Assembly: GCF_900188395.1 (NCBI RefSeq)
Contig: NZ_FZOB01000004.1
Location: 78,414 to 142,413, forward strand
Source of the DNA: Desulfurobacterium atlanticum
GTDB taxonomy: Bacteria > Aquificota > Aquificia > Desulfurobacteriales > Desulfurobacteriaceae
Length of the DNA stretch: 64,000 bases
Direction of reading: 5' to 3'
The notes below the pieces were generated by a model, which saw only the letters and a list, made by a program, of their open reading frames with translations, made no database searches and had not been told where the DNA came from. The position numbers were made by a program, and so were the translations under genes. Below, one piece after another: positions 3,703 through 62,417 of this stretch; positions within the stretch are counted from its first letter, which is position 1; every line of letters starts with the position of its first letter.

Positions 3703-5244
3703 TTATCTAAGTTTGTCAAAATTCACTTCAGGACAGATTCTGTCAAAATGGTCAAGAAGGGCATTGCCTATGAAAGTCACAAGATTGATGACCCCCTCAT
3801 ACCCCATTATCGGATAGCGGTGAAGATTGAATCTGTCCATTATAGGAAGCCCTATTCTTACAAGGGGAAGGTCAAACTCCCGTGCATAATACTTAAGATC
3901 ACACGGCCCTATGAGAATATCCGGCTTCTCCTCATACATGAGAGAACGAAGTTGCCACAAATCCATTCCTGCATAAGCCTTACATCCTTTTCCAAATTCG
4001 GAGGAATCAAGAAGCGCCTGCATCTCTTTCTGCCACTTTTTGGTTCCGTTTGTGGAAACCACATAGTAAGGTTTAGCACCCATCTCAAGCAAGAACTTTG
4101 AAACACCGTAAACTATATCAGGGTCTCCAACCACAGCAGCTTTAACTCCGTGAAATCTCTGATAAGCATCTGTCATAGCATCAAGAGCTATTCCTCTCAT
4201 CTCTTCTATTTCTGGCGGAATCTCCTTCCCTGTCATCTCAGAAACAGTCATAATAAACTTATCTGTAAACTCAACTCCTATAGGCATCTCCATAGCCTGT
4301 AAAGGTTGCTTCCACTTGTTCTTTATAAGCTTTGCGGTTTTCTTAAGGGAAAATTTCCCGATAATCACTGAACCCTTATTGTTAACAGCGTTTTTTACCT
4401 CTTCAAGAGGAGTTCCACCAGGATACATCTCAAACTTACCGAGGGGATAATCAAACGTCCTTGACCAGTCCGGAACAAACGTATAATCAACCCCCATTGT
4501 GTTAAGGAGCTTTTTAACTTCCTTTATATTGGCAGTGTAAGGGTCAAATCCTGGAATCACATTTATCTTTTCGGTTTTTTCCTCTTTCGGTTCGGCAAGC
4601 TGCTCAAGGATAGCCCTTACCATACTGTCGTAACCTTCAACATGGGAACCAACAAAAGATGGAGTGTTTGCATAAGTGATGGGAAAATCTTCAGGAATGG
4701 AACCTTTCTGTTTTGCTCTGTTTATAAAAGCCTTAAGATCATCTCCGATAACCTCCGCCATACAGCTTGTAAAAACGGCTATATGCTTTGGTTTATAAAG
4801 AGTGTAAGCGTTCTGCAATCCCTCAACTATGTTTGAAAGCCCGCCAAATACCGCCGCATCCTCGGTCATAGAGGAAGCAGCTTCCATAACAGGTTCTCTG
4901 AAATGCCTTGTAAACTCAAAACGGAAGTAGGAAGCGCACCCTTGCGAACCGTGACAGTAAGGAAGTGTTCCTTCTATACCAAGAGCAGCAAGAAGGGCAC
5001 CAAGAGGCTGGCACGCCATTTCAGGGTCTATTTTTATCGCTTCCCTTGAAAGGTTTTTCTCCTTATACTCTTTACTTTTTGTGTATTCCCACACCTCTTC
5101 AAGTGAACTAAATCTTTCAGGCAGTTCCCACCACGGCTTATCTCCAAGCTCTTCCATAGTAGTGTTATACGACCACATATCGTATATGGAAATCTCCTCA
5201 GGGACACTGTATGAATCAATACCATTTCTCTTTTTTTCAGCCAT
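3703..5244 (-). CDS. nifK: Nitrogenase molybdenum-iron protein beta subunit NifK
   Basis: A 513-residue beta subunit of dinitrogenase. P-cluster ligand regions are clear: MACQPLGALLAALG, YCHGSQGCASYFR and TSCMAEVIGDDL. The C-terminal half has DWSRTFDYPLGKF, which is typical of NifK. The start at 5242-5244 follows GGAGGT by six bases. An ATG nine codons upstream would place the start inside nifD and has no better site. NifK pairs with NifD in the heterotetramer and shares the P-cluster at the subunit interface. It follows nifD with a gap of two bases. Confidence 0.96.
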   Translation of the reverse strand: MAEKKRNGIDSYSVPEEISIYDMWSYNTTMEELGDKPWWELPERFSSLEEVWEYTKSKEYKEKNLSREAIKIDPEMACQPLGALLAALGIEGTLPYCHGSQGCASYFRFEFTRHFREPVMEAASSMTEDAAVFGGLSNIVEGLQNAYTLYKPKHIAVFTSCMAEVIGDDLKAFINRAKQKGSIPEDFPITYANTPSFVGSHVEGYDSMVRAILEQLAEPKEEKTEKINVIPGFDPYTANIKEVKKLLNTMGVDYTFVPDWSRTFDYPLGKFEMYPGGTPLEEVKNAVNNKGSVIIGKFSLKKTAKLIKNKWKQPLQAMEMPIGVEFTDKFIMTVSEMTGKEIPPEIEEMRGIALDAMTDAYQRFHGVKAAVVGDPDIVYGVSKFLLEMGAKPYYVVSTNGTKKWQKEMQALLDSSEFGKGCKAYAGMDLWQLRSLMYEEKPDILIGPCDLKYYAREFDLPLVRIGLPIMDRFNLHRYPIMGYEGVINLVTFIGNALLDHFDRICPEVNFDKLR

Positions 5245-5246
5245 CT

Positions 5247-6719
5247 CTACACCTCCATCTCTTTCTTCCATGGTGCTTTCACATACTTCCAGGGAGCACC
5301 GTTAACAGCCATATCCATATCCCTCGCAAGCCTTAAAAATCCAAGAATTCCGTGGTAAGGTCCCGAGTAATCCCAAGAGTGCATCTGACGGAACGGAATC
5401 CCCATCTTCTGGAACACATACTTTTCTTTTACACCAGAACCGATAAGGTCAGGTTTTAAAGCCTCAACAAATCTATCAAGCTCATATTGGGTCACATCAT
5501 CATAGATAAGAGCACCCTCTCCAAGTTTCGGATAGGTTTTCTCATAATCATCATCGTGAGCAAACTCATAACCTGTTCCGATAACAACCATACCAAGGTC
5601 TTTTTCAAGAGCTTCGGCAACGTGCCTTGGACGAAGCCCTCCCACATAAAGCATCACTTTTTTTCCTTCAAGACGCGGTCTATACTCTGCTTTAACCTTT
5701 TCAACAAACGGAGTCCATTTTTCTATAAACTTTTCAACATTCTCCTTAATTTTGTCATCAAAGAAATTTGCTATATCTCTTAAACTCTCAAAAGTATCTG
5801 TCGCTCCTATAAAGTTTGATTCGTAATAGGGTATTCCGTACTTCTTCTCCATACTTTTTGCAAAATACTGGGTTGACCTTGCACAGTGAACAATAGTCAA
5901 CTTGGCATACTTTGCCTTAGGCCAATCCCAAACATTTGGATCGGTAGGAAAACGGGCAACGACCCTGAGTCCTATAGCCTTAAATATCTTTAAAACCTCC
6001 CAGCCATCACCACCGATGTTGTAATCACCTATATAGACAACATCGTAAGGACCCGGCTCCCAGTCAGGGTCTAAATCTTTTGGTTCATATCTTTCAACTA
6101 TCCAGTCCCTCCACATATCGTTTGCTATATGGTGACCGAGAGACTGAGATACTCCTCTGAATCCTTCACAGTTATAAGGAACTATCCACTTCCCGGTCTC
6201 TTTCTCTTTTTTCCTTGCAACACTTCCTATATCATCACCGATAAGACCTACAGGACATTCTGAAAGAACACTTGCTCCCTGAGCAAGAGGAAACATCTCA
6301 AAAAGCTCATCAAGAGCTTTATCAAGTTTTTTATCCCCGCCGTAAACAACATCCCTCTCCTGATAGAATGTTGTGAAATGAAACGTTACAAAGTTATTAA
6401 GTCCTCTTTTCCCTGTAGCGTAGTTCCTTCTGGTTGACCAGGAGTAGTGACCGCATCCAACAGGTCCGTGAGAAATAGGTATCATCCCTTTAATCTGACC
6501 TACAAGAACACCCTTACAACCTGCGTAAGTACATCCTCTTGAAGAGATAACACCTGGACGGCACTTTACATTTGATATAACTTTATTCTTACCTGACGGG
6601 TCGTTAACAGCTAAGTGCTTTGCTCTTTCTTTTCGTGCTTTTTCTGGATATGCACTTAAAGTATCTTCAATAAGCTTTGCGGCAAAGGTAGGGTCAAGAA
6701 CCTGCCTCTTCTCCATCAT
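5247..6719 (-). CDS. nifD: Nitrogenase molybdenum-iron protein alpha subunit NifD
   Basis: A 490-residue alpha subunit holding the FeMo-cofactor. P-cluster Cys are at about residues 63 (RGCTYAGC), 89 (HGPVGCGHYSW) and 155 (SECPVGLIGDD). The cofactor ligands are Cys at about 279 (IVHCARSTQ) and His at about 447 (RQMHSWDYSG). The substrate-channel His is in GVSQSLGHHIAND. All catalytic positions needed for a Mo-type enzyme are present, and there is no VnfG/AnfG gene nearby, so this is a molybdenum nitrogenase. Tandem ATGs make the start ambiguous by one codon. The gene is separated from nifH by a strong stem-loop. Confidence 0.97.
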   Translation of the reverse strand: MMEKRQVLDPTFAAKLIEDTLSAYPEKARKERAKHLAVNDPSGKNKVISNVKCRPGVISSRGCTYAGCKGVLVGQIKGMIPISHGPVGCGHYSWSTRRNYATGKRGLNNFVTFHFTTFYQERDVVYGGDKKLDKALDELFEMFPLAQGASVLSECPVGLIGDDIGSVARKKEKETGKWIVPYNCEGFRGVSQSLGHHIANDMWRDWIVERYEPKDLDPDWEPGPYDVVYIGDYNIGGDGWEVLKIFKAIGLRVVARFPTDPNVWDWPKAKYAKLTIVHCARSTQYFAKSMEKKYGIPYYESNFIGATDTFESLRDIANFFDDKIKENVEKFIEKWTPFVEKVKAEYRPRLEGKKVMLYVGGLRPRHVAEALEKDLGMVVIGTGYEFAHDDDYEKTYPKLGEGALIYDDVTQYELDRFVEALKPDLIGSGVKEKYVFQKMGIPFRQMHSWDYSGPYHGILGFLRLARDMDMAVNGAPWKYVKAPWKKEMEV

Positions 6720-6741
6720 TTACCTCCTCATCTTTATCAAG

Positions 6742-6765
6742 GGGGGTAGCCCAAGGGCTACTCCC
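6742..6765 (-). other. Stem-loop in nifH-nifD intergenic region
   Basis: Seven-base arms GTAGCCC/GGGCTAC around a two-base loop are extended by three more G-C pairs after a mismatch. There is no U-run on the nif-coding side. Such hairpins after nifH are known to protect the nifH 3' end, raising NifH over NifDK from one operon. I infer the same role here. Confidence 0.6.
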
Positions 6766-6768
6766 TGC

Positions 6769-7674
<906 letters not shown>

Positions 7675-36033: not shown

Positions 36034-36088
36034 TGGTGCCCGGGGCGGGACTTGAACCCGCACGGTGTTGCCACCACAGGATCCTGAG
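36034..36088 (-). other. 3' fragment of tRNA-Leu(CAG): attachment-site remnant
   Basis: On the minus strand the segment holds an anticodon loop CTCAGGA, the 3' anticodon strand TCCTG, a long variable arm (GGTG-GCAA-CACC), the T arm (GCGGG-TTCAAGT-CCCGC), the acceptor strand CCCGGGC, A and CCA. The 5' half (acceptor, D arm and 5' anticodon strand CAGGA) is missing: upstream bases do not pair. A tRNA cut at the anticodon loop is the typical footprint left where a tyrosine-recombinase element integrated. Confidence 0.85.
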
Positions 36089-36124
36089 TTTTATGTAAAG
36101 TTTTGTTTTTCAAGTTCTTTATTG

Positions 36125-36993: not shown

Positions 36994-38433
36994 ATGAAAA
37001 GGTTAATTTCTGCTTCCTTGTCTATTCTGCTCTTTACGTGTTCTGCAAAAGCAGGCATTAAGGATTATCTTGACAAATTTGTTGTGGAAGTACCTGCAGA
37101 TACTGCCGGTGTTTATGAAAGTCAGCAAAGAAGGTATTACGTAGGTGGACGATTTACCTTGAAATCTCCGAAGATGGTTGTTAATCCCTTTTATGTCGAA
37201 CCTCCGTCTATAAATACTGGCTGTAACGGTATAGATATCGCTTTCGGGTCTTTTTCCTATCTTGCTGATGATAAATTCTGGGAAGAATTTGCGAAGTCTA
37301 TTTTCAATCCTTCAACAATAGCTGCAGTGGCTTATGACATTGCAATGGGAGCCCTTTGTGAAAAGTGTTCTTCAACACTGAAAAAATTAACAAGTCTTGC
37401 CAATCAGATTAACTCAATGAGTTTTGACAGTTGTAAAATAGCGACGGCGATAAGTGGTAATTTAAAAGAAAGGCTTGCAGGTACAAAGATAGCAAGTAAC
37501 TTGAATGGCAAAACATCTACCTGGCTTTCAGGTGCTGAAACCTTTCTTGATGATATGACAGATCTCATAAGTGATTTTAACACCAATGTTGATTGTGCCG
37601 GTTTCGCCTGTGAAGTGGCAAATAAAATAACAGATACAGACAGCTTCCTTGAAGACCTTTTAAAAGACACGGATATGTATGATCCTGATCTTGTTAATCT
37701 TTTAAGGGCTTACATAGGAGATTTCAAAATAGTTTCTAAAAAGAAAAGGCAGGTATTCCCTGTTGAAAATGCTACTGCTGAAAGAGATTCTGTTAATGGT
37801 GCAAAAGAACTTGTGGCAATACTTACAGGTTATGAAGACGGAGAGTGCAAAAGCAGTGTCACTGAGGAAGGGGTTGATAAAAACGGGAATACTGTAAATG
37901 TGGCAAATTATGTCCCTGCGTGTAAAGAGGCAGAGGATGCTATTACTGACATATTTAATGCAATAGATTACAGATACACTCCTTCAGCAACCACAACAAA
38001 CTTTATAAGAAAGTTTAACGTTCCGGTGTATTCTCTTTTAAATACTCTCTCTCTTGCTCCTGCAAGTGTCAGAGAAGCAATAAAATCAAAGCTTGTCAGG
38101 TATTTTGCATATGAATACGCCTATGAGATTCTTCAGCATACCTTTTCAGGTATCGGGCAAAAGTTGACTTTTGTGAAATATGCGATGGATCCTGACCTGA
38201 GGGAAACTAAATATGGAGGAGCTCTTGAAAGAAATATAGAAATGTTACGGAACAATATGGCAAAAATAATGAAAGAGATGAACAGGCAGTATGCAGAGGT
38301 TCAACAGGATTTTTACAGGACTGTTCAGCAGCAAAAAGTGTATGAGGATCTACAGAAACAGGTTATGGCTTCAATGAGCCATTCTCCGATTGCTGGGGCT
38401 TATCTTGCTTCTTTAGGGCTGAATAAACTTTAA
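36994..38433 (+). CDS. traH: F-type conjugative pilus assembly protein TraH
   Basis: A 479-residue protein with a signal peptide (residues 1-20, ending AKA-G). The region NTGCNGIDIAFGSFSYL near residue 75 matches the GCGGID-x-GSFSF block of F-plasmid TraH, and a later block with paired Cys (GALCEKCSSTLKKL) and INSMSFDSCKIA also agrees. C-terminal coiled coils lie near residues 400-450. TraH acts in the periplasm for pilus extension and mating-pair stabilisation with TraG. A GGAGG site precedes the ATG, and traG follows after 15 bases. Confidence 0.85.
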   Translation: MKRLISASLSILLFTCSAKAGIKDYLDKFVVEVPADTAGVYESQQRRYYVGGRFTLKSPKMVVNPFYVEPPSINTGCNGIDIAFGSFSYLADDKFWEEFAKSIFNPSTIAAVAYDIAMGALCEKCSSTLKKLTSLANQINSMSFDSCKIATAISGNLKERLAGTKIASNLNGKTSTWLSGAETFLDDMTDLISDFNTNVDCAGFACEVANKITDTDSFLEDLLKDTDMYDPDLVNLLRAYIGDFKIVSKKKRQVFPVENATAERDSVNGAKELVAILTGYEDGECKSSVTEEGVDKNGNTVNVANYVPACKEAEDAITDIFNAIDYRYTPSATTTNFIRKFNVPVYSLLNTLSLAPASVREAIKSKLVRYFAYEYAYEILQHTFSGIGQKLTFVKYAMDPDLRETKYGGALERNIEMLRNNMAKIMKEMNRQYAEVQQDFYRTVQQQKVYEDLQKQVMASMSHSPIAGAYLASLGLNKL

Positions 38434-38448
38434 TTTGGAGAGGGGATT

Positions 38449-41400
38449 TTGAAAAAGAAGATTTTTATTTTTCTTTGCATATTGCTTTTTCCTTCTGTTC
38501 TTTACGCAGCAACACCTGCTGACACCATATATACATGGGGATATGGCGATATTCTGGCAAAGGCTCTTCACGGTGTGGCCGATGTTGTAGGTTCCGGCAG
38601 CTTTGAAACCATATTTAAAATTTTTCTTGCCCTTTCTTTATTCTCTTCTGTTATCAGTCTAATATTTTCTATAGGTAGAAGAGTTGATTATTTTTCAGTT
38701 TTTAAAATGTGGATTTTCGGTTCAATGGTTTTTACCCTTCTTTTTACTGTAAAAATTCCTGTGGCTGTGGAAGACGTTTCAGGGTTCAGTCAGGTAGTAA
38801 ACAATGTGCCCTGGTTAATAGGGAAACCTCTTGCCTTTTTTTCACAGATTGAAAAAAGGATGGGAGAAGTTGTTGAACAGGCGTTTTTTCCTACAACTTC
38901 TTACATAGGATATAATCAACTTGGTCCAATTACACCCCTTTCGATGGTTGCCGGGGAAGTAGAAGCTACCACACCTGTTGATCCCTATCTATACAAGAGT
39001 ATCAATAACTATGTAAAAGATTGTGTGATTCCCGATATACTTGATGGTTCTAAAAGTCTTATTACCCTTCAATCTTCACATACTCTCTGGACGGACCTCG
39101 GAGATACAAATCCTGCACGGTTTACTGTTGTCTATGATTCTACAGATCCCGATGGTACGGTTTATGATTGTCCATCCGCTTACGGAGTGCTTGACGGTCG
39201 AGTGAGAATTTATGCAGCCGGTGATGGTCTTAATGTTCTGTCAAACAGTCTTGGCTTTGTTTCTTCTTCAATTATTGCAAGTTCTCTCGGGCTTGCTAAC
39301 GATTATTTTATGTCTTACTCAGCAAGTGCTCAAGATGCCATTTTGCAGGGTATAGCAATAAATCAGATGAAGTCGGGATATAGAGAGTGGGCGATAGCTG
39401 CCGGAGTAAATCCTGATGCTATTTCTTACTCTCTTTCTACGGCCACGCAGCAGCTGAAACAGACATCTCTTGCGAAGGCAATTACAGGAGCAAAATACCT
39501 GCCGATGGCAAAAGGGGTGGGAACTGCCTTTTTTGTGGCGATGCTTCCTTTTATGATTGTTATTTCTCTCTTTTCAGGTCCGAGGGCATTTAAGGTTGTT
39601 CTAACAGTATATGTGTGGTTTTTACTGTGGCATGTTGGGGAAGTGATTCTAAACGCCTTTCTGCTAAACTCTGCCCAGAGCCAGCTTTCGGCAATAGCTG
39701 CTGGCGGTCCCACTCTAATGAGTGCCGCAAATGTTGCTGCAGCTTCTCAGGATAAGATTATTGCCTTCTCATCTTTCTACTGGTTAATACCGACTATAAG
39801 TTTCGGGCTTGCTTCAGGTGCTGCTTATGCTTTTTCTTCTGTTGCTTCCGGAATTATGGGAGCCGCTTCAGGTGCTGCAGCTGCAGGAGCTGCAGAAGCT
39901 GCTAAAGGTTCTGCAAGTTTTGGAAACCTCGCTTATGGAAACGTTTCCTCAAACAATATTGACTGGTTACACAGAGAGAATATGGGAACCGAGACAAGAA
40001 TGGATCTGCTAAATTATTCCATGAACGGTAGAAGATCTATCAGTACCTCTTTCGCAAACAGAATGAACTCAGGAGGGGTATATAAAGAGCAAATAGCCAA
40101 TCAGTCCGTTTCTGCATTTGGCCTTCCTGGTGTTTCAGGTAAAGATAAGTTTATAGATGGAGAAGCTGTTTTTGGTGATAAAGGAGTGACCATACACGGG
40201 AAAACCGCAGGTGGATGGAATATTGATGGCCTTATTAACAAAAATGGCCAATTTACAGGAGTAATGAAAACAGGAAACAAAGAATTACAATATGACCATG
40301 GAGTTCCCATAAAAGAGAAGATTTTCGGGGAGGATGGTTCTGTAACCGAACGTATAGGTGATGCTGTTTCATGGAAGAAAGCCGGTGGTGGATTTGAAGG
40401 TGTCAATGGAACCATAACCGGAGTGTCTCTTTCATCAGCTGCCATTAAAAGTGCTTTAACGGCAAAAGAGCAGCTTTCAGAGCGTGCCTCGGATATGTGG
40501 AAAAAAGGCCAGCAACTTCTTAACAAATATACTGAAAAGTTCGGAATTGACAGAAGTTTTTCTGATATTACAAGGGCCGGTAAAACGGTGGAGAACGGAA
40601 GTGACTACTCCGAAGAAGTAAAGCAGATGGCAAAGAGAGAGGAATCTTCAGCCGTTGAACATGCTCTTGAGGATCTGGTGAAGTCAGGGGAGATTAAGAA
40701 AAATGAAGTTCAAGGAATGTTAAAAGCAGGGGCTAACTTAGTAGGTATCGGGGCTAATGGTGTTATTCTCCGCTCCAAAGATAACCGTTATGAAATTGCC
40801 CTGACAGGTAAAACAGCTCAGAAATTTAAGGAAGCTTTTGTTAAGAACTACATATCTTCTCAAAGCGGTAGAAAGGTTCTTAAAGAGGCCGAAAGAGGTT
40901 CTAAAGATGAAGAATTCAAAGAAAGATTATCAAGTGCTGTATCTTATGGGGAAGAAGCTTCAAAATATCTTGCTAAAGCTCATGAATATAAAGAAGAAGC
41001 TTCAAAAATGAATGAAAAATCTCTTTCTGCAGGCATTAACGTTCTTCCGGAGGCGATAAACGAATATCTTGATAGTAAAGGGATAACCGATAAAAATGCA
41101 AGATACAGAAAAACTGCAGAAATAGTAGATAAAATGAATAAACTGTTTGCCACCGACCCACAAAAAGGTGTTCAGTATTTGAATCGCATTTCTGGAGGGG
41201 ATTATAAAACCCTTGAAGATATTTCAAGGATGAAGGTTGATATTAAAAAGCCGGAAGATTTTAGTGTCAAGAAACAGATGGGAAAAGGTCAAAGCTTGAA
41301 GGATGAGGTTTTAGGTGGCATAAACAGCGGGGGAACCAGTGTTAATGGGAAATATTCAGGCAATCCGGGAAATAATGCTTCAACCGGAGTTTCGGTGCTC

Positions 41401-41850
41401 CATAATGCGGTTGACCCGCAGGTTTGGAAAGGGCATGTAACAGGTAAAGAAAATATAGAAATGGTTCAAAATCTGTTGAGAAATTCTTTTGCCAGAAGGG
41501 GACTTACCTACGATAAAGACAAGATATATGTAGAGGCCTGGAATAACGATGCAAGAAGAATTTTTCCGGCTGCAAGAAAAGCCATAGACAACAAGATGAT
41601 ACATACTGTCCTTGAGAAAATGCAGGAATCTCCGGATAAGAAAGTGCAAAATATTGATGAAAATTTCATGAAAAGCATGAAGTCCGGAGAGGTGGTTGAA
41701 ACCGAAGGTGGACTAAAGGTTGCGAAACTTACCCCCGGAACTTATTTAACATATAGTAAAGATACTGGTTATTCAGTACTTGAGTTTAATGATGAAAAAG
41801 CTGAATCTTTAAGAGTTAAAAATTTGAATCCCAACTGGAAGTTAGAGTGA
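38449..41850 (+). CDS. traG: F-type conjugation protein TraG (mating-pair stabilisation)
   Basis: A 1133-residue protein starting at TTG after GGAGAGGGG. A signal-like N-terminus and several membrane helices (about residues 45-110 and 350-480) form the TraG N-terminal domain, including the NNVPWLIGKPLAFFSQIEKRM stretch similar to the DNVPVGLAMPLSL region of F TraG. An Ala/Gly-rich hinge near 465-490 and a long hydrophilic periplasmic C-terminal domain follow. F TraG supports pilus assembly, mating-pair stability and entry exclusion. Only traH and traG of the transfer set are seen. Confidence 0.82.
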   Translation: MKKKIFIFLCILLFPSVLYAATPADTIYTWGYGDILAKALHGVADVVGSGSFETIFKIFLALSLFSSVISLIFSIGRRVDYFSVFKMWIFGSMVFTLLFTVKIPVAVEDVSGFSQVVNNVPWLIGKPLAFFSQIEKRMGEVVEQAFFPTTSYIGYNQLGPITPLSMVAGEVEATTPVDPYLYKSINNYVKDCVIPDILDGSKSLITLQSSHTLWTDLGDTNPARFTVVYDSTDPDGTVYDCPSAYGVLDGRVRIYAAGDGLNVLSNSLGFVSSSIIASSLGLANDYFMSYSASAQDAILQGIAINQMKSGYREWAIAAGVNPDAISYSLSTATQQLKQTSLAKAITGAKYLPMAKGVGTAFFVAMLPFMIVISLFSGPRAFKVVLTVYVWFLLWHVGEVILNAFLLNSAQSQLSAIAAGGPTLMSAANVAAASQDKIIAFSSFYWLIPTISFGLASGAAYAFSSVASGIMGAASGAAAAGAAEAAKGSASFGNLAYGNVSSNNIDWLHRENMGTETRMDLLNYSMNGRRSISTSFANRMNSGGVYKEQIANQSVSAFGLPGVSGKDKFIDGEAVFGDKGVTIHGKTAGGWNIDGLINKNGQFTGVMKTGNKELQYDHGVPIKEKIFGEDGSVTERIGDAVSWKKAGGGFEGVNGTITGVSLSSAAIKSALTAKEQLSERASDMWKKGQQLLNKYTEKFGIDRSFSDITRAGKTVENGSDYSEEVKQMAKREESSAVEHALEDLVKSGEIKKNEVQGMLKAGANLVGIGANGVILRSKDNRYEIALTGKTAQKFKEAFVKNYISSQSGRKVLKEAERGSKDEEFKERLSSAVSYGEEASKYLAKAHEYKEEASKMNEKSLSAGINVLPEAINEYLDSKGITDKNARYRKTAEIVDKMNKLFATDPQKGVQYLNRISGGDYKTLEDISRMKVDIKKPEDFSVKKQMGKGQSLKDEVLGGINSGGTSVNGKYSGNPGNNASTGVSVLHNAVDPQVWKGHVTGKENIEMVQNLLRNSFARRGLTYDKDKIYVEAWNNDARRIFPAARKAIDNKMIHTVLEKMQESPDKKVQNIDENFMKSMKSGEVVETEGGLKVAKLTPGTYLTYSKDTGYSVLEFNDEKAESLRVKNLNPNWKLE

Positions 41851-44147: not shown

Positions 44148-44214
44148 CGGTAGAAACAAGAAAACTATATTTCCCGCTCCCCTCAATTTTCGTGCGTGAA
44201 AATGTATATACAAT

Positions 44215-44303
44215 CTATACAGTATTGCCAATCTATACTGTATATACAATACAAACATCTATATTGTATTGCCAGTATATATATCTATACAATATTGACG
44301 GTT
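44215..44303. repeat. Iteron array A
   Basis: Repeats of CTATAC/CTATAT-type units with TGTATTGCC or TATTGAC tails. The first 49 bases (44215-44263) are identical to 45701-45749 and 45953-46001. It sits just beyond the 3' end of the AAA ATPase gene. Confidence 0.85.
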
Positions 44304-45596: not shown

Positions 45597-46001
45597 TTCT
45601 CTCTGTTTTCAGCCGCTCCCCCTCAATTTTTGTGTTTTTGCATGCAGGATATGTGTCTATACGGTATATACATCATATACAATCTATACAATACAGACAT
45701 CTATACAGTATTGCCAATCTATACTGTATATACAATACAAACATCTATACTGTATTGACAGTATTGACTGTATATCCAGTACAGAATATCAGCCGAGACT
45801 ATAAGCCGCTCCCTCTGGAAATATCTCTTTTTTCTCTCTGTTTTCAGCCGCTCCCCCTCAATTTTTGTGTTTTTGCATGCAGGATATGTGTCTATACGGT
45901 ATATACATCATATACAATCTATACAATACAGACATCTATACAATACAGACATCTATACAGTATTGCCAATCTATACTGTATATACAATACAAACATCTAT
46001 A
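45597..46001. repeat. 153-base direct duplication with embedded iterons
   Basis: 45597-45749 is repeated at 45832-46001. The copies agree throughout except that the second has one more 17-base unit (CTATACAATACAGACAT). Each copy starts in C/T-rich sequence with GCCGCTCCCCCTC and ends in the 49-base iteron block. Confidence 0.9.
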
Positions 46002-46080
46002 TTGTATTGACAGGATATACAATCTATATAATACAAATATCTATACAATATTGACAGTATTGACTATACAGATTATACTG
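45653..46080. repeat. Iteron arrays B and C (centromere-like)
   Basis: Dense CTATAC-containing units at 45653-45785 and 45890-46080 alternate with TGTATATACA and TATTGACAG segments. Array C runs right up to and through the promoter of the ParM-like gene, as parC does in type II plasmid partition systems. The 45499-46120 stretch has no credible gene; frames in it simply translate the repeats. Confidence 0.85.
46051..46079 (+). promoter_or_regulatory. Sigma-70 promoter of parM-like gene, inside iterons
   Basis: TTGACA-N17-TATACT is a near-perfect promoter. It lies within array C, about 42 bases before the start codon. A protein binding the iterons would cover it, giving autoregulation. Confidence 0.8.
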
Positions 46081-46120: not shown

Positions 46121-47017
46121 ATGATAATCGGACTTGATGTAGGATTCGGAAGAACAAAAGTATGTACGGAAGAAAAATGCTTTTCATTTCCGTCCTGGGT
46201 AGCAAGACACACCCCATCAGCTGACGAAGAAGTGGAAACTGTTTCCCTTTTCGGTGAAGAATACGTAGTGGGAGAGGATGCAAAATATGAGAGCAGTCTT
46301 ATAGAGATATCGGATATAAAAGACTATCTGAAATATCTGCCGCTCTTTCTCAAGTATGTTTCACAGAATCTTTCAGAAACTCCGGAAATTATAATTACAG
46401 GCCTTCCACCGAAATATAGAAACTATGCGGAAAAAGTGGAGAAGATAATAGAAGATACGGAAGCGGCCGGCAAAGTCATACCACAAGGGATGGGAATATT
46501 CTTTGACGTGAAAGGACAGGTTTCACAAAGCGAAGATATACTGATAATAGATATAGGCTACAACACACTTGATTACATTATGCTTGTAAAAGACGAAAGA
46601 AAGCAAATAGGCTTCAGAAAAAGAAAATCAAACACAATAGACAACTTTGGAATAAACAGAGCGGTTCTTGAGTTCAGGAACAATCTGGAAGACAGCTATA
46701 TAAAAAATCTCTCACTTACAAGATTAAACGAAATTTTTATAAACGGTAAAGGAAGAATACTTAACGAGACGGTGGATTTTTCCAAACAGAGAGAAAGGGC
46801 TGTTAATGCGTATGCTGAAATGGTGATAGGAAGATTAAAGACAGAAGTTGGAGATTTTATAGCCAACGTTGAAACGATAGTTATAGCAGGAGGAGGAGCA
46901 AGATTTATAAAGGGAGAGATGATAGGAAGGCCTGATGCTTTCATTCCCGAAAAACCGGAATTTTCGCAGGCAAGGGGATATTTCGTATTTGGGAAAACTC
47001 TCGGGGAAGAAAAATGA
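46121..47017 (+). CDS. parM: ParM-like actin-family plasmid segregation protein
   Basis: A 298-residue actin-fold ATPase. Phosphate-1 motif IIGLDVGFGRTKVC is at the N-terminus, phosphate-2 ILIIDIGYNTLDYIML near residue 143, and the adenosine motif IVIAGGGARFIKGEM near 254. The length and the ALP-like GLDVGFGxTK start match plasmid/phage actin-like proteins (ParM, Alp) rather than MreB. ParM filaments push plasmid copies apart after capture by ParR on parC. A ParR-like RHH protein is encoded two genes on, and iterons lie upstream. AGGAGG precedes the ATG. Confidence 0.87.
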   Translation: MIIGLDVGFGRTKVCTEEKCFSFPSWVARHTPSADEEVETVSLFGEEYVVGEDAKYESSLIEISDIKDYLKYLPLFLKYVSQNLSETPEIIITGLPPKYRNYAEKVEKIIEDTEAAGKVIPQGMGIFFDVKGQVSQSEDILIIDIGYNTLDYIMLVKDERKQIGFRKRKSNTIDNFGINRAVLEFRNNLEDSYIKNLSLTRLNEIFINGKGRILNETVDFSKQRERAVNAYAEMVIGRLKTEVGDFIANVETIVIAGGGARFIKGEMIGRPDAFIPEKPEFSQARGYFVFGKTLGEEK

Positions 47018-51012: not shown

Positions 51013-51125
51013 ATGTAATTTAACTAAAAATACGCTCTAAGTCCTCTTCCGTAAGGGAGGGGATACAGAGCGACGCCGTAAGGCGTTGTATTGACAAGCG
51101 TCAGTTCTGAACATAGAATAAGGGT

Positions 51126-51533
51126 ATGGAGTACAAGCTGGATAAAGGGTGTCATTCTGTATATTCCCTTCAGTTCCACCTTGTATTAGTGGTAAAGTAT
51201 AGGAAAAAGGTTCTGATAGGGAAGCTTGCAGAAAGACTAAAGGAGATAGTTGTGGAAGTAGCAGAGCACTTTGGTATTGAGATAATAGAGCAGGAAACGG
51301 ATAAAGACCACATTCACATCCTGTTTTCCTCACGACCTACGGTTATGCTTTCAAGGTTTGTGAATTCACTCAAGTCAGTAACATCAAGAAAACTGAGGAG
51401 AGAGTTCCCAGAAGTTATGAGAAAGGAGCTTTGGGGTGGAAAGTTCTGGTCTCCATCCTACTTCATAGCAACGACTGGACAGGTGAAACTGGAGGACATA
51501 AAAAGATATGTCCAGAGCCAAGGAAGAAAGTAA
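51126..51533 (+). CDS. tnpA: IS200/IS605-family HUH transposase TnpA, copy 1
   Basis: A 135-residue Y1 transposase. The HUH pair is His62/His64 in KDHIHILFS and the nucleophile Tyr128 in LEDIKRYVQSQ. It excises and inserts single-stranded circles at the 3' side of TTTAAC. It appears complete and is identical to the copy at 58604. It overlaps tnpB by 26 bases. Confidence 0.95.
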   Translation: MEYKLDKGCHSVYSLQFHLVLVVKYRKKVLIGKLAERLKEIVVEVAEHFGIEIIEQETDKDHIHILFSSRPTVMLSRFVNSLKSVTSRKLRREFPEVMRKELWGGKFWSPSYFIATTGQVKLEDIKRYVQSQGRK

Positions 51534-52908
51534 ATTTTTGCTTACCTATAAATTCAGAGCTTATCCTTCTGCTCTGCAGGAATACAAGTTGGAAAACTGG
51601 CTTTTTGCTCTATGCTGGCTCTACAACCATGCACTTGAAGAAAGGAAAAGAGTCTGGAAGGAAGAGAGGAGAACTGTAAAATATTCAGAACAACAAAACA
51701 ACCTACCTAAGCTCAAGAAGAAAGAACCGATACTAAAACTTGTTCACTCCCAAGTTCTCCAAGATACACTCAGGAGAGTAGATAAAGCATTCCAAAAGTT
51801 TTTCCAAGATTTAGAGAGGAAGAAGAAAGGAGAAAAGGTAAAGGTTGGTTACCCAAAAAAGAAACCGATAGCGAAATACAAGTCTCTTACTTTTTCGCAA
51901 GTCTGGATGAAACAGAAAGGGAAATTAGTTCCGATAATCAAACTGGAAAAGAAGAATAACCGATTTGCATACCTTCACCTACCCAAGATAGGTAAACTCA
52001 AGATAAGACTGCATAGAGAAATTGACTGGACAAGAGCAAAGACAGTAACAGTAAAGAGAGAACCAAGCGGAAACTGGTATGTATGCATAAGCGTAGAAGT
52101 TGACCTTGACCAGATACTCAAAGAGGCAGAAGAAAGGGTAGAAAGAAAGATAAAAACGGTAGGAATAGACTTAGGAGTGAAACATCTTGCAGTGACCAGT
52201 AAAAAAGACTACATAAAGCATCCGAAATTTATACAAAAACTTGAGAAAAGACTAAAGAGAGAACAGAAGAAACTATCAAGGAAAGAAAAAGGGAGCAGAA
52301 ACTTTGAAAAGCAAAAAAAGAAAGTAGCAAAGATACACGAAAAAATAAAAAACGCAAGAAGAGACTTTCTCCATAAACTATCAAGGAAGTTAGTAGGAAG
52401 ATACCATCTGATAAGCTTTGAAGACCTTGACATACCCGGTCTTGTAGAAAACAACCCATTAGCAAAACTAATACTTGATGCAGGATGGGGAACACTCATT
52501 ACCTTTACCACCTATAAAGCCGTAATGGCAGGGGTAAAGGTGGTAAAAGTAGATGCGGCATATACAACTCAAGAATGTTCTTACTGTGGACTAAAAGTTC
52601 CCAAAACATTAGCAGATAGGATGCACAAATGTCCGAGATGCGGAATAGAGCTTGATAGAGACTATAACGCAAGCATAGTAATAGACAAGAGAGGAATAGA
52701 GAAAGAAGGGCTCACCCACCTTACGGGTGGTAGGGTCGGAGCGACCCGAACTTACGCCTGTGGAGAGGGCACTGGCGGGGTCTCCTCAAAAGGGGAGATT
52801 AGCTATCCCTCGCTGAAGCAGGAATCCCCTTGCGGGTCTTCTGGGTGGAGCAACTCTCGGCAGAGGGTTGTTTTCCTACCAGAAGCTCCGTCCGTAAGGG
52901 CGGAGTAG
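51508..52908 (+). CDS. tnpB: RNA-guided nuclease TnpB, copy 1 (with extended tail)
   Basis: A 466-residue reading frame. RuvC acids are Asp221 (GIDLGVK), Glu305 (FEDLDI) and Asp385 (DRDYNAS). The zinc finger uses CSYC near 357 and CPRC near 375. TnpB normally ends at about 380-410 residues. Here no stop occurs until 52908, so the last 65 or so residues are read from the right-end RNA region and may be non-functional. It would use the overlapping right-end RNA as guide to cut targets with a TTTAAC-like flanking motif. Confidence 0.93.
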   Translation: MSRAKEESKFLLTYKFRAYPSALQEYKLENWLFALCWLYNHALEERKRVWKEERRTVKYSEQQNNLPKLKKKEPILKLVHSQVLQDTLRRVDKAFQKFFQDLERKKKGEKVKVGYPKKKPIAKYKSLTFSQVWMKQKGKLVPIIKLEKKNNRFAYLHLPKIGKLKIRLHREIDWTRAKTVTVKREPSGNWYVCISVEVDLDQILKEAEERVERKIKTVGIDLGVKHLAVTSKKDYIKHPKFIQKLEKRLKREQKKLSRKEKGSRNFEKQKKKVAKIHEKIKNARRDFLHKLSRKLVGRYHLISFEDLDIPGLVENNPLAKLILDAGWGTLITFTTYKAVMAGVKVVKVDAAYTTQECSYCGLKVPKTLADRMHKCPRCGIELDRDYNASIVIDKRGIEKEGLTHLTGGRVGATRTYACGEGTGGVSSKGEISYPSLKQESPCGSSGWSNSRQRVVFLPEAPSVRAE

Positions 52909-54764: not shown

Positions 54765-55649
54765 ATGAACAGACAGCAGGAACTACACCGTATAAAATCA
54801 ATTCCACCTGAAATAATCCTTGAAGATTTCAAAATTCCTTTCACTTTCAGGAACTCATACATAGAAGCGACAGCTGTATGGAGAAACGAAAAAACTCCTT
54901 CTGTCTCAATACAGAAAAACGAATTTGGCGAGTGGCTCTGGCACGACTTTGGAACTGGCAAAGGGGGAAGCTGGATTGACCTTGTGATGGTCTTATACAA
55001 CTGCGATTACATTACAGCTGTAAGACTTTTAAGAGAAAAATATTTAGAGAAAAATGATTTTCCTGACCTTAAACCTGACTTTACACCTAAATCCTGCCGG
55101 GTTTCTACGGTAAAAATCATTGAAGTAAAGAAAGTTTCAAGTCCTGCACTTTTGAAATACTTGAGAGAAAGAAAAATTACCAAAATTCCAAACTGGTTAA
55201 AAGAAATACACTGGGAAATAAATGGAAGGAAATACTTTGGAGCAGGAATAAAAACCGAGACCGGGAGTTATACGGTAAGAAACAAGTTTGGAAAGTGGAA
55301 CTTGAAAGAGAAAGCAGAGCAGAAGCACTCTTACAGCCTGATAGAAAAGGGAAGCAGATATATAGCAATATTTGAGGGATTGTTTGACGCCCTCAGCTGG
55401 GAACAGCTGAAGTTTAAGCAAACAGATATTTTGATTTTAAATTCCGTTGTCAATGTAGAGAAAGCCCTTGCTGTTATTGAAAAATACGACACCGTAATTC
55501 TCGGATTAGACAACGATAAAGCTGGACTTTCTGCCCGCAGAAAGTTTGAGAAAATAAACAGTAAAACCCTTTACCTCAAGTTTGAAAGCAAGGATTTAAA
55601 CGAAGCATTGAAAAAGCAAGATAGTATTTCTCTACTCCCACTCTTTTAA
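54765..55649 (+). CDS. TOPRIM-domain primase-like protein
   Basis: A 294-residue protein. The N-terminal part (WRNEKTPSVSIQKNEFGEWLWHDFGTGKGGSWIDLVM) is the CHC2/DnaG zinc-domain fold but lacks the Cys ligands, as in many plasmid primases. A TOPRIM domain from about 200 has the Glu in IAIFEGLFDALSW and the DXD in ILGLDNDKAG. It probably primes replication of the element with the Rep-like protein three genes upstream. No helicase domain is attached. Confidence 0.85.
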   Translation: MNRQQELHRIKSIPPEIILEDFKIPFTFRNSYIEATAVWRNEKTPSVSIQKNEFGEWLWHDFGTGKGGSWIDLVMVLYNCDYITAVRLLREKYLEKNDFPDLKPDFTPKSCRVSTVKIIEVKKVSSPALLKYLRERKITKIPNWLKEIHWEINGRKYFGAGIKTETGSYTVRNKFGKWNLKEKAEQKHSYSLIEKGSRYIAIFEGLFDALSWEQLKFKQTDILILNSVVNVEKALAVIEKYDTVILGLDNDKAGLSARRKFEKINSKTLYLKFESKDLNEALKKQDSISLLPLF

Positions 55650-56153
55650 AAGCCTATGAATATAGCTTTTAGAAACTTTTAACTTGTGGTGTTTCCTCAG
55701 AAACTCAGATATTGCTACACAGCCAGCTCCCTCTTTCCGTAAAGTCAGAATTTCAGCTTTTAATTTTTCAAGTTTTTCTCTCTTTTTCGGCTTTCTGCCA
55801 GCTCTACTCTTAACCTCGTTCAAAAAACCTCTTGCAAGCCTGAGAAACCTCTCATCTTTCAACTGTGCAAGCCTGGAGTCTCCGTCATATTCAGCTTTTT
55901 TAAGCTCTATTTCATAACGCCTTATAGCAACAAGAAAAGCAAAATACCAGATAACCAAAATCGCCTGTTGTAAAGAACAATTCAAAGTTTTTGACAGCTG
56001 TTTCGGAAAGTCTGGGATCTCCTGAATCTCAGGTAATAATTCCGCCGTCTTGCGTAGAACAAAACCTTTCTCGTAAGGAAGGTATTTATTAAAAGCAGAG
56101 AGTAGCTTCTGCTTGTTCTTCAAAGCAATGGAAATCTCTTCAGTAATATCCAT
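55632..56153 (-). CDS. Hypothetical protein with C-terminal helix-turn-helix
   Basis: A 173-residue protein. The last 50 residues (KLKAEILTLRKEGAGCVAISEFLRKHHKLKVSKSYIHRLLKEWE) form an HTH resembling resolvase/Hin-type DNA-binding domains. An arginine-lysine stretch precedes it. Its 3' end overlaps the primase gene by 18 bases, tail to tail. It lies three bases after the integrase stop on the same strand, so it could be a recombination directionality factor, or a regulator. Confidence 0.65.
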   Translation of the reverse strand: MDITEEISIALKNKQKLLSAFNKYLPYEKGFVLRKTAELLPEIQEIPDFPKQLSKTLNCSLQQAILVIWYFAFLVAIRRYEIELKKAEYDGDSRLAQLKDERFLRLARGFLNEVKSRAGRKPKKREKLEKLKAEILTLRKEGAGCVAISEFLRKHHKLKVSKSYIHRLLKEWE

Positions 56154-56156: not shown

Positions 56157-57107
56157 TCACCGTCCCAAATAGTGCAATGTAATCTCTTCCCTGTGGTGTC
56201 CCATCTCTTCACTTACAGTCTTTAAAGCCTCGTGATGCCCAATTCCTTCAGAAATCAAAGAATCATACCTCTCTTGAGCAAAGTTATACCTCAAACCGTG
56301 AGAGCCCTGATACTGCTGAGAAGTCAAAGCTGAAGCCTCTTTCAAATCCTTGAGATAGTCCTCATACTTGAACTCTATTCTGCCATCAGAAGTGACAGCT
56401 TCCTTGACGGCTTCATACAGCTCTCTGGAAACTTCAACAGTCCTCTCATATCCGCCCTTCCCCTGAACTTCTATCCCGTAATGCTGAACGCCAGCTAAAT
56501 CAGTCCAGAACTTTAAACTGTCCTGCCTTATACCTGCTACCTCGTGAATGCGTAAACCTGCCTCGTGCTGAAGCTGTGCGACAAGCTGATGAGATTGTGA
56601 AGAAAGATTATCTATCAGCTCTTTCGGACTTTCGTATGCTCCCCTCTCGGGAGAATCCGCCCTGTCCTGTGCCAGAGTATTAGCAAGCCAGCGACCGCTA
56701 CCGTCTTCCCTGCTTCCAAAATTAACATCTATCCCAAGTTTCTGCTCAATAACATTTTCCAACTTTCCAATAGCTGACGATATGTTTTTCAAAGACTTTT
56801 CCGATAAATCCGCCTTCTGCTCAATGAAACTTTCTATGTGATGAGCCTGAATATCAGTAACCTTGTTAATCCCAAACTCTTCCCTCACATATTCCGCCAG
56901 CTGATACCAGACCCCAACATACTCTTTAGCAGTCTTAAAACTCCTGCAATACGGATTATCCTGCTTGGTATAGCCTTCAGCGTATATATGAGAAACCTTT
57001 ATCCCAAACTGACCGTTATTTGTAGCAAGATTCAAAAGCTCCTTAACTTGATGAATAATGCTTCCAGAAATGCGAATAGAACCGTCAGAACTGACGATTT
57101 TGGGCAT
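56157..57107 (-). CDS. Tyrosine recombinase/integrase
   Basis: About 316 residues. The catalytic core has Arg I (EAGLRIHEVAG), Lys (GKGGYERTVEV), HXXR (GSHGLRYNFAQER), and the terminal His and Tyr (EEMGHHREEITLHYLG), so all active-site residues are present. The N-terminal SAM-like domain spans about residues 55-145. The ATG at 57107 has GGGGGG upstream. This is the likely enzyme that inserted the element at tRNA-Leu; tandem repeats in front of it could be arm-binding sites. Confidence 0.9.
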   Translation of the reverse strand: MPKIVSSDGSIRISGSIIHQVKELLNLATNNGQFGIKVSHIYAEGYTKQDNPYCRSFKTAKEYVGVWYQLAEYVREEFGINKVTDIQAHHIESFIEQKADLSEKSLKNISSAIGKLENVIEQKLGIDVNFGSREDGSGRWLANTLAQDRADSPERGAYESPKELIDNLSSQSHQLVAQLQHEAGLRIHEVAGIRQDSLKFWTDLAGVQHYGIEVQGKGGYERTVEVSRELYEAVKEAVTSDGRIEFKYEDYLKDLKEASALTSQQYQGSHGLRYNFAQERYDSLISEGIGHHEALKTVSEEMGHHREEITLHYLGR

Positions 57108-57136
57108 ACTACCCCCCTTGCAGTTGTTCAAGCCTA

Positions 57137-57283
57137 CGCAACGGGTTTAACGACCTCACCCGCAACGGGTTTTAAATCCTCACAGTAGAAGTTTTCCTTC
57201 TCCTACCGTGTCATCTTCTTTCATCTCTCACCTACTTAAACTTGTTTAAAGTTAAAGGAAATTTTCACCTCCTTAAACTTGTT
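57137..57283. repeat. Short direct repeats upstream of integrase
   Basis: CGCAACGGGTTT occurs at 57137-57148 and 57161-57172, heading two imperfect 24-base tandem units. CTTAAACTTGTT occurs at 57235-57246 and 57272-57283. Position before an integrase gene suits arm-type binding sites of an attachment region. Confidence 0.6.
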
Positions 57284-57300
57284 ATTCTTAAAAAGATTTA

Positions 57301-57690
57301 TGAAGTCTCAAAACTTCCTCTGAGACTTCATAATACAGACCGAAGAGTTCGGTCTGTAAAGTCAAAATTTCCAGTTTGAGACTGGAAATTTTGAAATAGT
57401 TTTAAAGGGTCTAATCTCTAAAGACAGACCCTTATCCCCCCTTCTTTTCATTGACTTGGGTAGAACCTCTATCTACCCAAGTTACAAATTAAACGATTGT
57501 GTTTTTTTTAGTCAATTAGTTTTTTTTGCCCCCCGGGGGGCAGGGGGACAAAGAAAATAACTATGCTTTTAGTTTTTTTATAGACAGGACAGATGAAGTC
57601 TCCACTTCTGAAAACCTCACCTGTCCCGTCCGCTTCTGCTTCTGCTTCTTTTCTGCCCGCATTAGCAACCAGACTTACAGTCTGGTTGCT
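57301..57690. repeat. Array of distinct perfect hairpins
   Basis: Successive perfect inverted repeats, all different: 57301-57330 (10-bp arms), 57334-57358 (11-bp), 57362-57394 (14-bp), 57405-57433 (8-bp), 57454-57482 (11-bp), 57527-57542 (16-bp GC palindrome) and 57664-57690 (12-bp). Loops are 3-13 bases, and gaps between the first three are a few bases. GGACAG/CTGTCC arms also enclose a small GAAGT/ACTTC hairpin near 57587-57626. None has a clear T-run. The noncoding tract runs from 57108 to 58502. Short ORFs here carry no credible protein. Confidence 0.85.
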
Positions 57691-57806
57691 TGCGGGTTGC
57701 TTACACTTAAGAATTTTAAACGCAACGGTTGAAGTTGTCAACAGCCTTCATTTTTAGAATGTATTTGTGGAATTGTATTTTTTACACAATTTGTGGAAAC
57801 AGGATA

Positions 57807-57985
57807 GGGGACGAGAAGATTTTTTCGTCTCCGCATAGCCGAGTGGACTCACCAGCCAACCTCAAAGTAAAAAAATATGCCCTTGCTCACTTCGTCAAGG
57901 TCTCCGCCCAGCCTCGCTATGCTCGGCTGGTCCCCCCCTTGACTCCGTTCGCTTCGTGCATGATTGAATCTATGAGAGGTTGGCT
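57807..57985. repeat. Nested inverted repeats
   Basis: AGCCAACCTC (57854-57863) faces GAGGTTGGCT (57976-57985). Inside, TCAAGG...CCTTGA and CCAGCC...GGCTGG pairs are nested. Left of it, GACGA...TCGTC forms a hairpin near 57807-57833. The whole could fold as a cruciform or structured RNA. Confidence 0.65.
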
Positions 57986-58275
57986 GATAGGAAAGAAAAT
58001 TTCCTTTCAATTTTCAAAATACCGTCTTATTTGCCCAATTTTCGCATTTTTTCTCTTCTCAAGTTATTGACACCTTTTTAGGGAAAAAATCGCATAGAAG
58101 CGAAATCTCGCGGTCTGACGAGGTATTTTTTCGTGCAAGCTGAAACTTTTCCTGAAAAATCAAATTTTTAAGAGAAAGCGATTTTTTTCATTCAACTTTC
58201 ATTTCATTTTAAAAATACAATCCGCGTGAGCTGTTCTGGTTCTTTTCTCTCTCGTTGCCGTCCTGCTGGTATATA

Positions 58276-58418
58276 TATTTGGTGTGCGTATTTGGTGGTC
58301 TATTTGGTGGGGAACGGGAAGAAATTAGAAATCAAGAAGTTATGATAGGTGAGCGTGATTGGTGTATCTAAATTGCGTGATTGAAGTATCCAAGTTGCGT
58401 GATTGAAGTATCCAAGTT
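58276..58418. repeat. Iterons: TATTTGGTG x3 and 22-bp unit x3 (origin candidate)
   Basis: TATTTGGTG occurs at 58276, 58289 and 58301. Three adjacent 22-bp units lie at 58353-58374, 58375-58396 and 58397-58418; the second and third are identical (GCGTGATTGAAGTATCCAAG core) and the first has four changes. About 22-bp tandem iterons next to AT-rich DNA are typical of theta-plasmid origins. Confidence 0.8.
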
Positions 58419-58603
58419 TGACTTAGTAAGCAAATCTCGGTATATTTTATTTGTAAACCTTATTTTGGAGCTAATTTGACTTCTACTAACATTCACTTTA
58501 ACTAAAAATACGCTCTAAGTCCTCTTCCGTAAGGGAGGGGATACAGAGCGACGCCGTAAGGCGTTGTATTGACAAGCGTCAGTTCTGAACATAGAATAAG
58601 GGT

Positions 58604-59011
58604 ATGGAGTACAAGCTGGATAAAGGGTGTCATTCTGTATATTCCCTTCAGTTCCACCTTGTATTAGTGGTAAAGTATAGGAAAAAGGTTCTGATAGGGA
58701 AGCTTGCAGAAAGACTAAAGGAGATAGTTGTGGAAGTAGCAGAGCACTTTGGTATTGAGATAATAGAGCAGGAAACGGATAAAGACCACATTCACATCCT
58801 GTTTTCCTCACGACCTACGGTTATGCTTTCAAGGTTTGTGAATTCACTCAAGTCAGTAACATCAAGAAAACTGAGGAGAGAGTTCCCAGAAGTTATGAGA
58901 AAGGAGCTTTGGGGTGGAAAGTTCTGGTCTCCATCCTACTTCATAGCAACGACTGGACAGGTGAAACTGGAGGACATAAAAAGATATGTCCAGAGCCAAG
59001 GAAGAAAGTAA
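58604..59011 (+). CDS. tnpA: IS200/IS605-family HUH transposase TnpA, copy 2
   Basis: A 135-residue protein identical to copy 1: His62/His64 and Tyr128 are kept. It can in principle mobilise both IS copies and perhaps the segment between them. Confidence 0.95.
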   Translation: MEYKLDKGCHSVYSLQFHLVLVVKYRKKVLIGKLAERLKEIVVEVAEHFGIEIIEQETDKDHIHILFSSRPTVMLSRFVNSLKSVTSRKLRREFPEVMRKELWGGKFWSPSYFIATTGQVKLEDIKRYVQSQGRK

Positions 59012-60385
59012 ATTTTTGCTTACCTATAAATTCAGAGCTTATCCTTCTGCTCTGCAGGAATACAAGTTGGAAAACTGGCTTTTTGCTCTATGCTGGCTCT
59101 ACAACCATGCACTTGAAGAAAGGAAAAGAGTCTGGAAGGAAGAGAGGAGAACTGTAAAATATTCAGAACAACAAAACAACCTACCTAAGCTCAAGAAGAA
59201 AGAACCGATACTAAAACTTGTTCACTCCCAAGTTCTCCAAGATACACTCAGGAGAGTAGATAAAGCATTCCAAAAGTTTTTCCAAGATTTAGAGAGGAAG
59301 AAGAAAGGAGAAAAGGTAAAGGTTGGTTACCCAAAAAAGAAACCGATAGCGAAATACAAGTCTCTTACTTTTTCGCAAGTCTGGATGAAACAGAAAGGGA
59401 AATTAGTTCCGATAATCAAACTGGAAAAGAAGAATAACCGATTTGCATACCTTCACCTACCCAAGATAGGTAAACTCAAGATAAGACTGCATAGAGAAAT
59501 TGACTGGACAAGAGCAAAGACAGTAACAGTAAAGAGAGAACCAAGCGGAAACTGGTATGTATGCATAAGCGTAGAAGTTGACCTTGACCAGATACTCAAA
59601 GAGGCAGAAGAAAGGGTAGAAAGAAAGATAAAAACGGTAGGAATAGACTTAGGAGTGAAACATCTTGCAGTGACCAGTAAAAAAGACTACATAAAGCATC
59701 CGAAATTTATACAAAAACTTGAGAAAAGACTAAAGAGAGAACAGAAGAAACTATCAAGGAAAGAAAAAGGGAGCAGAAACTTTGAAAAGCAAAAAAAGAA
59801 AGTAGCAAAGATACACGAAAAAATAAAAAACGCAAGAAGAGACTTTCTCCATAAACTATCAAGGAAGTTAGTAGGAAGATACCATCTGATAAGCTTTGAA
59901 GACCTTGACATACCCGGTCTTGTAGAAAACAACCCATTAGCAAAACTAATACTTGATGCAGGATGGGGAACACTCATTACCTTTACCACCTATAAAGCCG
60001 TAATGGCAGGGGTAAAGGTGGTAAAAGTAGATGCGGCATATACAACTCAAGAATGTTCTTACTGTGGACTAAAAGTTCCCAAAACATTAGCAGATAGGAT
60101 GCACAAATGTCCGAGATCGGAATAGAGCTTGATAGAGACTATAACGCAAGCATAGTAATAGACAAGAGAGGAATAGAGAAAGAAGGGCTCACCCACCTTA
60201 CGGGTGGTAGGGTCGGAGCGACCCGAACTTACGCCTGTGGAGAGGGCACTGGCGGGGTCTCCTCAAAAGGGGAGATTAGCTATCCCTCGCTGAAGCAGGA
60301 ATCCCCTTGCGGGTCTTCTGGGTGGAGCAACTCTCGGCAGAGGGTTGTTTTCCTACCAGAAGCTCCGTCCGTAAGGGCGGAGTAG
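58986..60385 (+). pseudogene. tnpB: Frameshifted tnpB, copy 2
   Basis: The frame matches copy 1 up to residue 376, then the loss of one G in the CPRC codons shifts it to a stop at 60123-60125. The fourth zinc-finger Cys and the last RuvC Asp (DRDYNAS) are lost from the main frame; they continue in another frame from 60107 to 60385. It is therefore expected to be inactive as a nuclease, unless sequencing error caused the gap. Confidence 0.9.
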
Positions 60386-62320: not shown

Positions 62321-62417
62321 ACCTGTCCCTTTATTTCACCCCTTGATTTTAACCTGTCCCTTTATTTCACCCCACCTGTCCCTTTATTTCACCCTACTTG
62401 TCCCTTTATTTCACCCC
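62321..62417. repeat. Four 22-bp iterons (second origin candidate)
   Basis: The 22-base unit with core CCTGTCCCTTTATTTCACCC lies at 62321-62342, 62352-62373, 62374-62395 and 62396-62417. The last three are contiguous. AT-rich DNA with TATATATA tracts lies directly left (62200-62280). The unit is unrelated to the one at 58353. No gene is seen between 61829 and 62500. Confidence 0.85.

Follow-up and report, generated by a model that had tools for sequence, protein, structure and literature searches.

Three recombinase-like relaxases, TcpM, MpsA and MobK, are known, all of which are reported to be without a classical core-binding domain (PMC8152469). In SGI1, the recombinase-family protein MpsA, with Tyr319 at its C-terminus, acts together with MpsB on oriT; this oriT, an inverted-repeat array, precedes mpsA, and the essential sgm-sRNA is encoded between the two (PMC6414798, PMC9299015). 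Three stem-loops of oriT are conserved in SGI1-like elements despite sequence change (PMC8409611). In the small Klebsiella plasmid pIGRK, MobK uses an oriT within a 456-bp noncoding repeat region upstream of mobK (PMC8152469).

The window (the whole stretch of 64 kb that was analysed, from a heat-loving bacterium) contains a tract of hairpins upstream of two adjoining genes:

55632-56153, minus strand: HTH partner protein, 173 aa (family alignment and profile)
56157-57131, minus strand: tyrosine-recombinase-family protein, 324 aa, proposed to be relaxase-like (Pfam PF00589, alignments, structure model)

The original prediction named the larger protein an integrase. It is a member of the tyrosine-recombinase family but not a typical integrase, and belongs to a group ending just past the catalytic tyrosine. 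R194, K225, H278, R281, H312 and Y321 are invariant across the family in the alignments, and only three residues remain beyond Tyr321. All complete relatives in two alignments likewise stop 1-5 residues past the catalytic tyrosine, and the Xer-type C-terminal segment is absent from every one of them. In Xer and Cre, the segment past the catalytic tyrosine packs the synaptic complex. In the structure model (mean pLDDT 83), an N-terminal domain of helices is followed by the catalytic domain of a recombinase, which ends with the tyrosine helix; Cre, XerH and IntI4 are the nearest solved folds. The matches to PF12834 and PF02899 (SAM-like) are weak and below the cut-off; they point to a core-binding domain. 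Because the protein appears to have such a domain, which is reported missing from the known recombinase-like relaxases, it was not filed as MOBM; it probably works like a MOBM member, with a putative relaxase activity. The HTH gene adjoins that of the recombinase here, and its relatives do so in other bacteria too.

As in SGI1, the catalytic tyrosine is placed at the very end of a recombinase-family protein, judging by the reported numbering of MpsA (PMC6414798, PMC8409611), inverted repeats lie upstream of the recombinase gene, and the RNA, which is predicted here, would be read towards that gene (PMC9299015). A second small protein and an island with traG and traH are further likenesses; SGI1 relies on a helper, and the presence of traG (plus traH) without a complete transfer system, a trait of SGI1-like elements, is also found in this island. 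According to published residue numbers, MpsA has the same H-x-x-R-H motif and terminal tyrosine, and its R-to-H distance is 85, compared with 86 as the commonest value in the family studied here, whereas its R-to-Y spacing is 69 instead of the usual 40. MpsB is core-binding-like, whereas the partner here is an HTH protein, and SGI1-like elements insert at trmE, dusA or yicC, compared with tRNA-Leu(CAG) here. pIGRK also combines a recombinase-like relaxase with a noncoding repeat oriT region just upstream, but MobK has Tyr179 followed by extra C-terminal helices, and neither an HTH partner nor an RNA has been reported for it. TcpM of pCW3 (MOBM) is comparable by its description as a relaxase of tyrosine-recombinase origin (PMC12857230). 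The recombinase-type catalytic residues and the nucleophilic tyrosine of MOBM are present in the protein from the window, which differs from this class by its weak core-binding match and helical N-terminal domain. Xer with dif/cer resembles the locus in protein fold and, in the relatives, in palindromic site geometry; it differs in that the proteins studied here stop just past the catalytic tyrosine and are accompanied by a long structured tract and an HTH partner. Because of the parallels with SGI1, SGI1-like elements and pIGRK, a mobilisation module is proposed. That the tract is the oriT/RNA region of such a TR-type module is given a probability of about 50%.

The hairpin tract and its predicted transcript

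The tract and its signals comprise the following features (those called unstranded were not assigned to a strand):

57713-57741, minus strand: promoter-like site (TTGACA-17-TAAAAT, 11/12 matches) that borders the tract on its 5' side
57288-57706, minus strand: predicted structured RNA of ~419 nt and candidate oriT region (fold z, G-T:A-C ratio)
57656-57696, minus strand: hairpin 1, 18 pairs with a 2-nt bulge, holding a perfect 12-bp stem (57664-57690)
57582-57631, minus strand: hairpin 2, 23 pairs including G-U, unbroken on the minus strand only
57527-57542, unstranded: perfect loop-free palindrome TGCCCCCC/GGGGGGCA, 8 bp
57454-57482, unstranded: perfect hairpin, 11-bp stem
57405-57433, unstranded: perfect hairpin, 8-bp stem and 13-base loop
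57362-57394, unstranded: perfect hairpin, 14-bp stem
57334-57358, unstranded: perfect hairpin, 11-bp stem
57298-57333: perfect hairpin, 13-bp stem, inside the terminator-like hairpin
57288-57333, minus strand: terminator-like hairpin, 16 pairs, followed by ATCTTTTTAA

The row of hairpins was confirmed and greatly exceeds chance expectation. Seven perfect, non-overlapping ones with stems of 8-14 bp are present within 390 bases (57298-57690), in agreement with the row of at least seven that had been predicted; 1,000 dinucleotide shuffles of the tract yielded 0.16 on average and three at most, and in windows of 411 bases taken from the whole 64 kb the mean was 0.33, with none above three outside the tract area. 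The tract is also the strongest fold of the 64-kb window (fold z of -12.8 for the plus-strand RNA, -16.0 for the minus-strand DNA and -15.5 for the minus-strand RNA 57706-57288).

The hairpins are unlike one another and have only short motifs in common, so that copies of one repeat and CRISPR were rejected, as the original prediction had it. Its statement that each hairpin has its own sequence holds for the hairpins as wholes but not for these motifs: ATGAAGTCTC is found in two hairpins, and GTCT/AGAC, a 4-mer picked after looking, occurs 12 times compared with 3.5 expected. A coding region was likewise dismissed, as anticipated, since the overlapping ORFs encode just 68-77 aa. The exclusion of terminators stands for the row as a whole, which was rejected as a row of terminators because only its last hairpin reaches the terminator score on the minus strand, the strand of the proposed transcript; for this hairpin the exclusion fails, and the claim that no T-run is present was wrong on that strand, where the hairpin is followed by ATCTTTTTAA. 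Integron attC sites were considered for the tract and rejected. The tract occurs once in the genome, and no homologue of its DNA was found in plasmids and 22 genomes of the same family. Rfam 15 gave no match at the gathering score in the window or in the tracts of 13 related loci, and below that score only matches at chance level.

The promoter-like site (57741-57713) ends ~16 bases ahead of the first stem and is the sole minus-strand site with at least 11/12 matches in 64 kb. Four sites reach 11/12 in the whole window: that of the tract, one ahead of each IS605-type copy and one ahead of the ParM-like gene (see below). The stem at 57582-57631 depends on G-U pairs and is hence unbroken only on the minus strand, and the ratio of G-T to A-C in the stems of the tract, read on the minus strand, is 11:2. 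Since promoter and terminator signals bracket the tract, and in view of this ratio, a discrete RNA of ~419 nt running towards the recombinase gene is likely in this element. The long structured RNA suggested originally has thus survived on account of the predicted promoter, the predicted terminator and the minus-strand G-U excess. Among the relatives, the sense strand is favoured in 13 of 30 loci, which does not single out one RNA strand; with no strand consistently preferred, it is unlikely that the tracts in general act purely as RNA. Between the tract and the recombinase gene, short direct repeats (CGCAACGGGTTTAA.. and TCACCT.CTTAAACTTGTT; 57137-57183 and 57228-57283) were observed that are perhaps operator sites.

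Relatives of the recombinase and their tracts

Relatives of the recombinase, mostly with ~25-40% identity, are present in Aquificota, in 48 loci across many bacterial phyla and on 139 plasmids, many of them small; the viral contigs scanned contained none. The pattern scan was built on an alignment of four members, the 19-member alignment being too diverse. Of the 139 plasmids, 128 are typed as non-mobilizable, that is, they are without a known relaxase. Among the 98 neighbour proteins from 17 related loci subjected to a Pfam scan, no relaxase was found in the 25 commonest families listed, and separate integrases and resolvases were few.

In 31 of 53 loci, the 120-nt window with the most structure fell inside the 1.8 kb that precede the recombinase gene, compared with 12.2 expected from the share of windows, and the upstream gap was more structured than other ORF-free gaps of the same loci in 34 of 44 cases (Wilcoxon p=4e-5). 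The profile of the HTH partner matched in 40 of 57 loci; in 20 of these 40, the HTH gene is divergent from that of the recombinase, and the tract lies between both genes. When plasmids were searched by tblastn with the HTH partner, no match was obtained, but the profile does find the partner. Related loci share ancestry, so these locus counts are not all independent events. The conserved association with a relaxase-like recombinase keeps the originally suggested origin of transfer in play. The nearest relative (L042, Persephonella) has a palindrome, and its upstream region is poorly structured. The strongest tract found is that of the Selenomonas plasmid pSRC8 (L038, 2408-2774), whose unusually long hairpins have stems of ~35 and ~27 bases and precede the recombinase gene. 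Selenomonas and Geomonas (L049) are among the relatives in which the palindrome is strong.

In 11 tracts, CGCTTTAGG-type arms face CCTAAAGCG in the form CGCTTTAGG-N-CCTAAAGCG, and in six gammaproteobacterial tracts CGCTATGTA faces TACATAGCG in the form CGCTATGTA-N-TACATAGCG. The CGCT/AGCG core is invariant over 16 tracts, and the flanking and inner positions vary on both sides. Double changes in the 16 palindromes numbered 76, whereas shuffles gave 35.5 and slid controls no more than 21. The 16 sequences had, however, been picked as palindromes with a CGCT/AGCG core, which favours double-change counts. Unaffected by this selection is that tracts belonging to this one gene family have the same core in different phyla. 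The conserved palindrome, of either type, is absent from the tract in the window, and so is its core. Conservation of pairing, which the original prediction had called for, is seen in the palindromes of the relatives with their compensatory changes, whereas the hairpins of the window are without close relatives.

The surrounding island

The landmarks of the island are:

36034-36089, minus strand: 3' fragment of tRNA-Leu(CAG), 56 nt, att junction of the island (evidence: synteny with a genome of the same genus; contig C16 has the intact tRNA)
36994-38433, plus strand: traH (PF06122, E 5e-45)
38449-41850, plus strand: traG, a TraG_N protein (PF07916, E 2e-57)
54765-55649: primase-like gene

The insertion site of the island is tRNA-Leu(CAG). 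The chromosome on the left is syntenic with same-genus genomes up to the tRNA fragment, and the end of contig C16 (L115) carries both the intact tRNA-Leu(CAG) and the opposite chromosomal flank; the window therefore ends inside the island. The distance from the tract is 21 kb to the att junction and at least 6 kb to the other end of the island. The integrase of the island itself is not within the window and may be encoded in an unassembled part adjoining C16. The only transfer genes of the island are traH and traG. The genome encodes no second TraG_N protein, and for coupling proteins only weak, partial matches were found in it.

Besides the primase-like gene, the island carries genes for an S24-type repressor and HipA and a ParM-like gene (46121-47017) with an upstream repeat array. 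The tandem repeats ahead of the latter have units of 18 nt (44203-44271) and 44 nt (45667-46057) and are possibly a partition site. Two unrelated arrays, each of three 22-bp direct repeats, are iteron-like (58353-58418 and 62352-62417). Two near-identical IS605-type elements (51037-52908 and 58515-60385) encode TnpA of 135 aa and TnpB, which is full length (466 aa) in the first copy and has its frame broken past residue 379 in the second. At 57853-57986, 11-bp inverted repeats (CAGCCAACCTC/GAGGTTGGCTG) surround a 112-bp insert, resembling a small insertion element. On the chromosomal side, the translations point to a nitrogenase cluster (626-7662; NifH-, NifD/K- and NifE/N-like).

Proposed mobilisation and the alternatives

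The sequence itself shows the hairpins, the promoter and terminator signals predicted from it, the recombinase family with its shared layout and the insertion in tRNA-Leu; mobilisation would further involve transcription, nicking, oriT activity, transfer and an RNA role. The sigma-70-type promoter (57741-57713) would drive the ~419-nt structured RNA, which would stop at the terminator-like hairpin (57333-57298). The DNA of the tract would hold palindromes at which the recombinase-family protein (56157-57131) nicks in the manner of a relaxase, assisted by the HTH protein (55632-56153) as an accessory, and the nicked single-stranded DNA would leave via the conjugation machinery of a helper element. 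For the predicted transcript of the tract, the role of a mobilisation RNA is proposed in this element. More tentatively, the locus may represent a widespread, undescribed module of three parts: a relaxase of the tyrosine-recombinase type whose chain closes with the catalytic tyrosine, its HTH partner, and a structured tract that bears the conserved palindrome (CGCTTTAGG or CGCTATGTA type), joined in this element by the ~0.42-kb RNA. Many plasmids and islands now classed as non-mobilizable, in groups ranging from Aquificota to Planctomycetes, Bacillota and Gammaproteobacteria, might then owe their transfer to it. If its recombinase is a recombinase-derived relaxase, mobilisation may be open to many of the small plasmids with this typing (128 of the 139), and the palindromes would be a sequence signature for locating their origins of transfer. 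A mobilisation RNA beside a relaxase gene would also suggest that the sgm-sRNA of SGI1 is not unique.

The main rival is a system for multimer resolution, in which the palindromes would serve an Xer-like resolvase as sites of recombination and as accessory sites, any RNA being incidental. The fold of the recombinase, nearest to Cre, XerH and IntI4, is in line with this, as are the palindromes of the relatives, whose 11-5-11 or 11-6-11 arms resemble core sites, and the presence of relatives on many small plasmids, where resolution helps. However, all relatives are without the segment past the tyrosine, a simple site needs no 400-900 bases of hairpins, promoter and terminator, and some plasmids with the recombinase carry a separate resolvase or integrase; resolution is therefore considered unlikely.

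Replication control is possible in view of the iteron-like repeats and the primase-like gene nearby; the tract would then be a structured RNA or a single-strand initiation region of a plasmid-like replicon. The 22-bp repeats at 58353-58418 and the ParM-like gene with its upstream repeats fit such a replicon, and the combination of promoter and structured RNA is found in replication-control RNAs as well. The tract of the relatives, however, stays with the genes for recombinase and HTH protein on replicons that are unrelated, the Rep genes are located elsewhere (e.g. in pBD146, pSRC8 and the pTRACA plasmids), and a ColE1-type plasmid with the tract has its RNAI at another place, which together make this reading improbable. 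Equally improbable is an independent RNA, regulatory or antitoxin, that would stand beside the recombinase by chance: its own predicted promoter and terminator would suit it, but structured tracts recur beside this recombinase family, and no Rfam match reached the gathering threshold. Very little, finally, speaks for the integration platform of the original prediction, with the tract as the att site of the island for the adjoining gene. This gene does look integrase-like, but the tract is present in a single copy, and an att site was rejected because the junction of the island, the fragment at 36034-36089, lies in tRNA-Leu(CAG), 21 kb from the tract, with the intact tRNA on C16.
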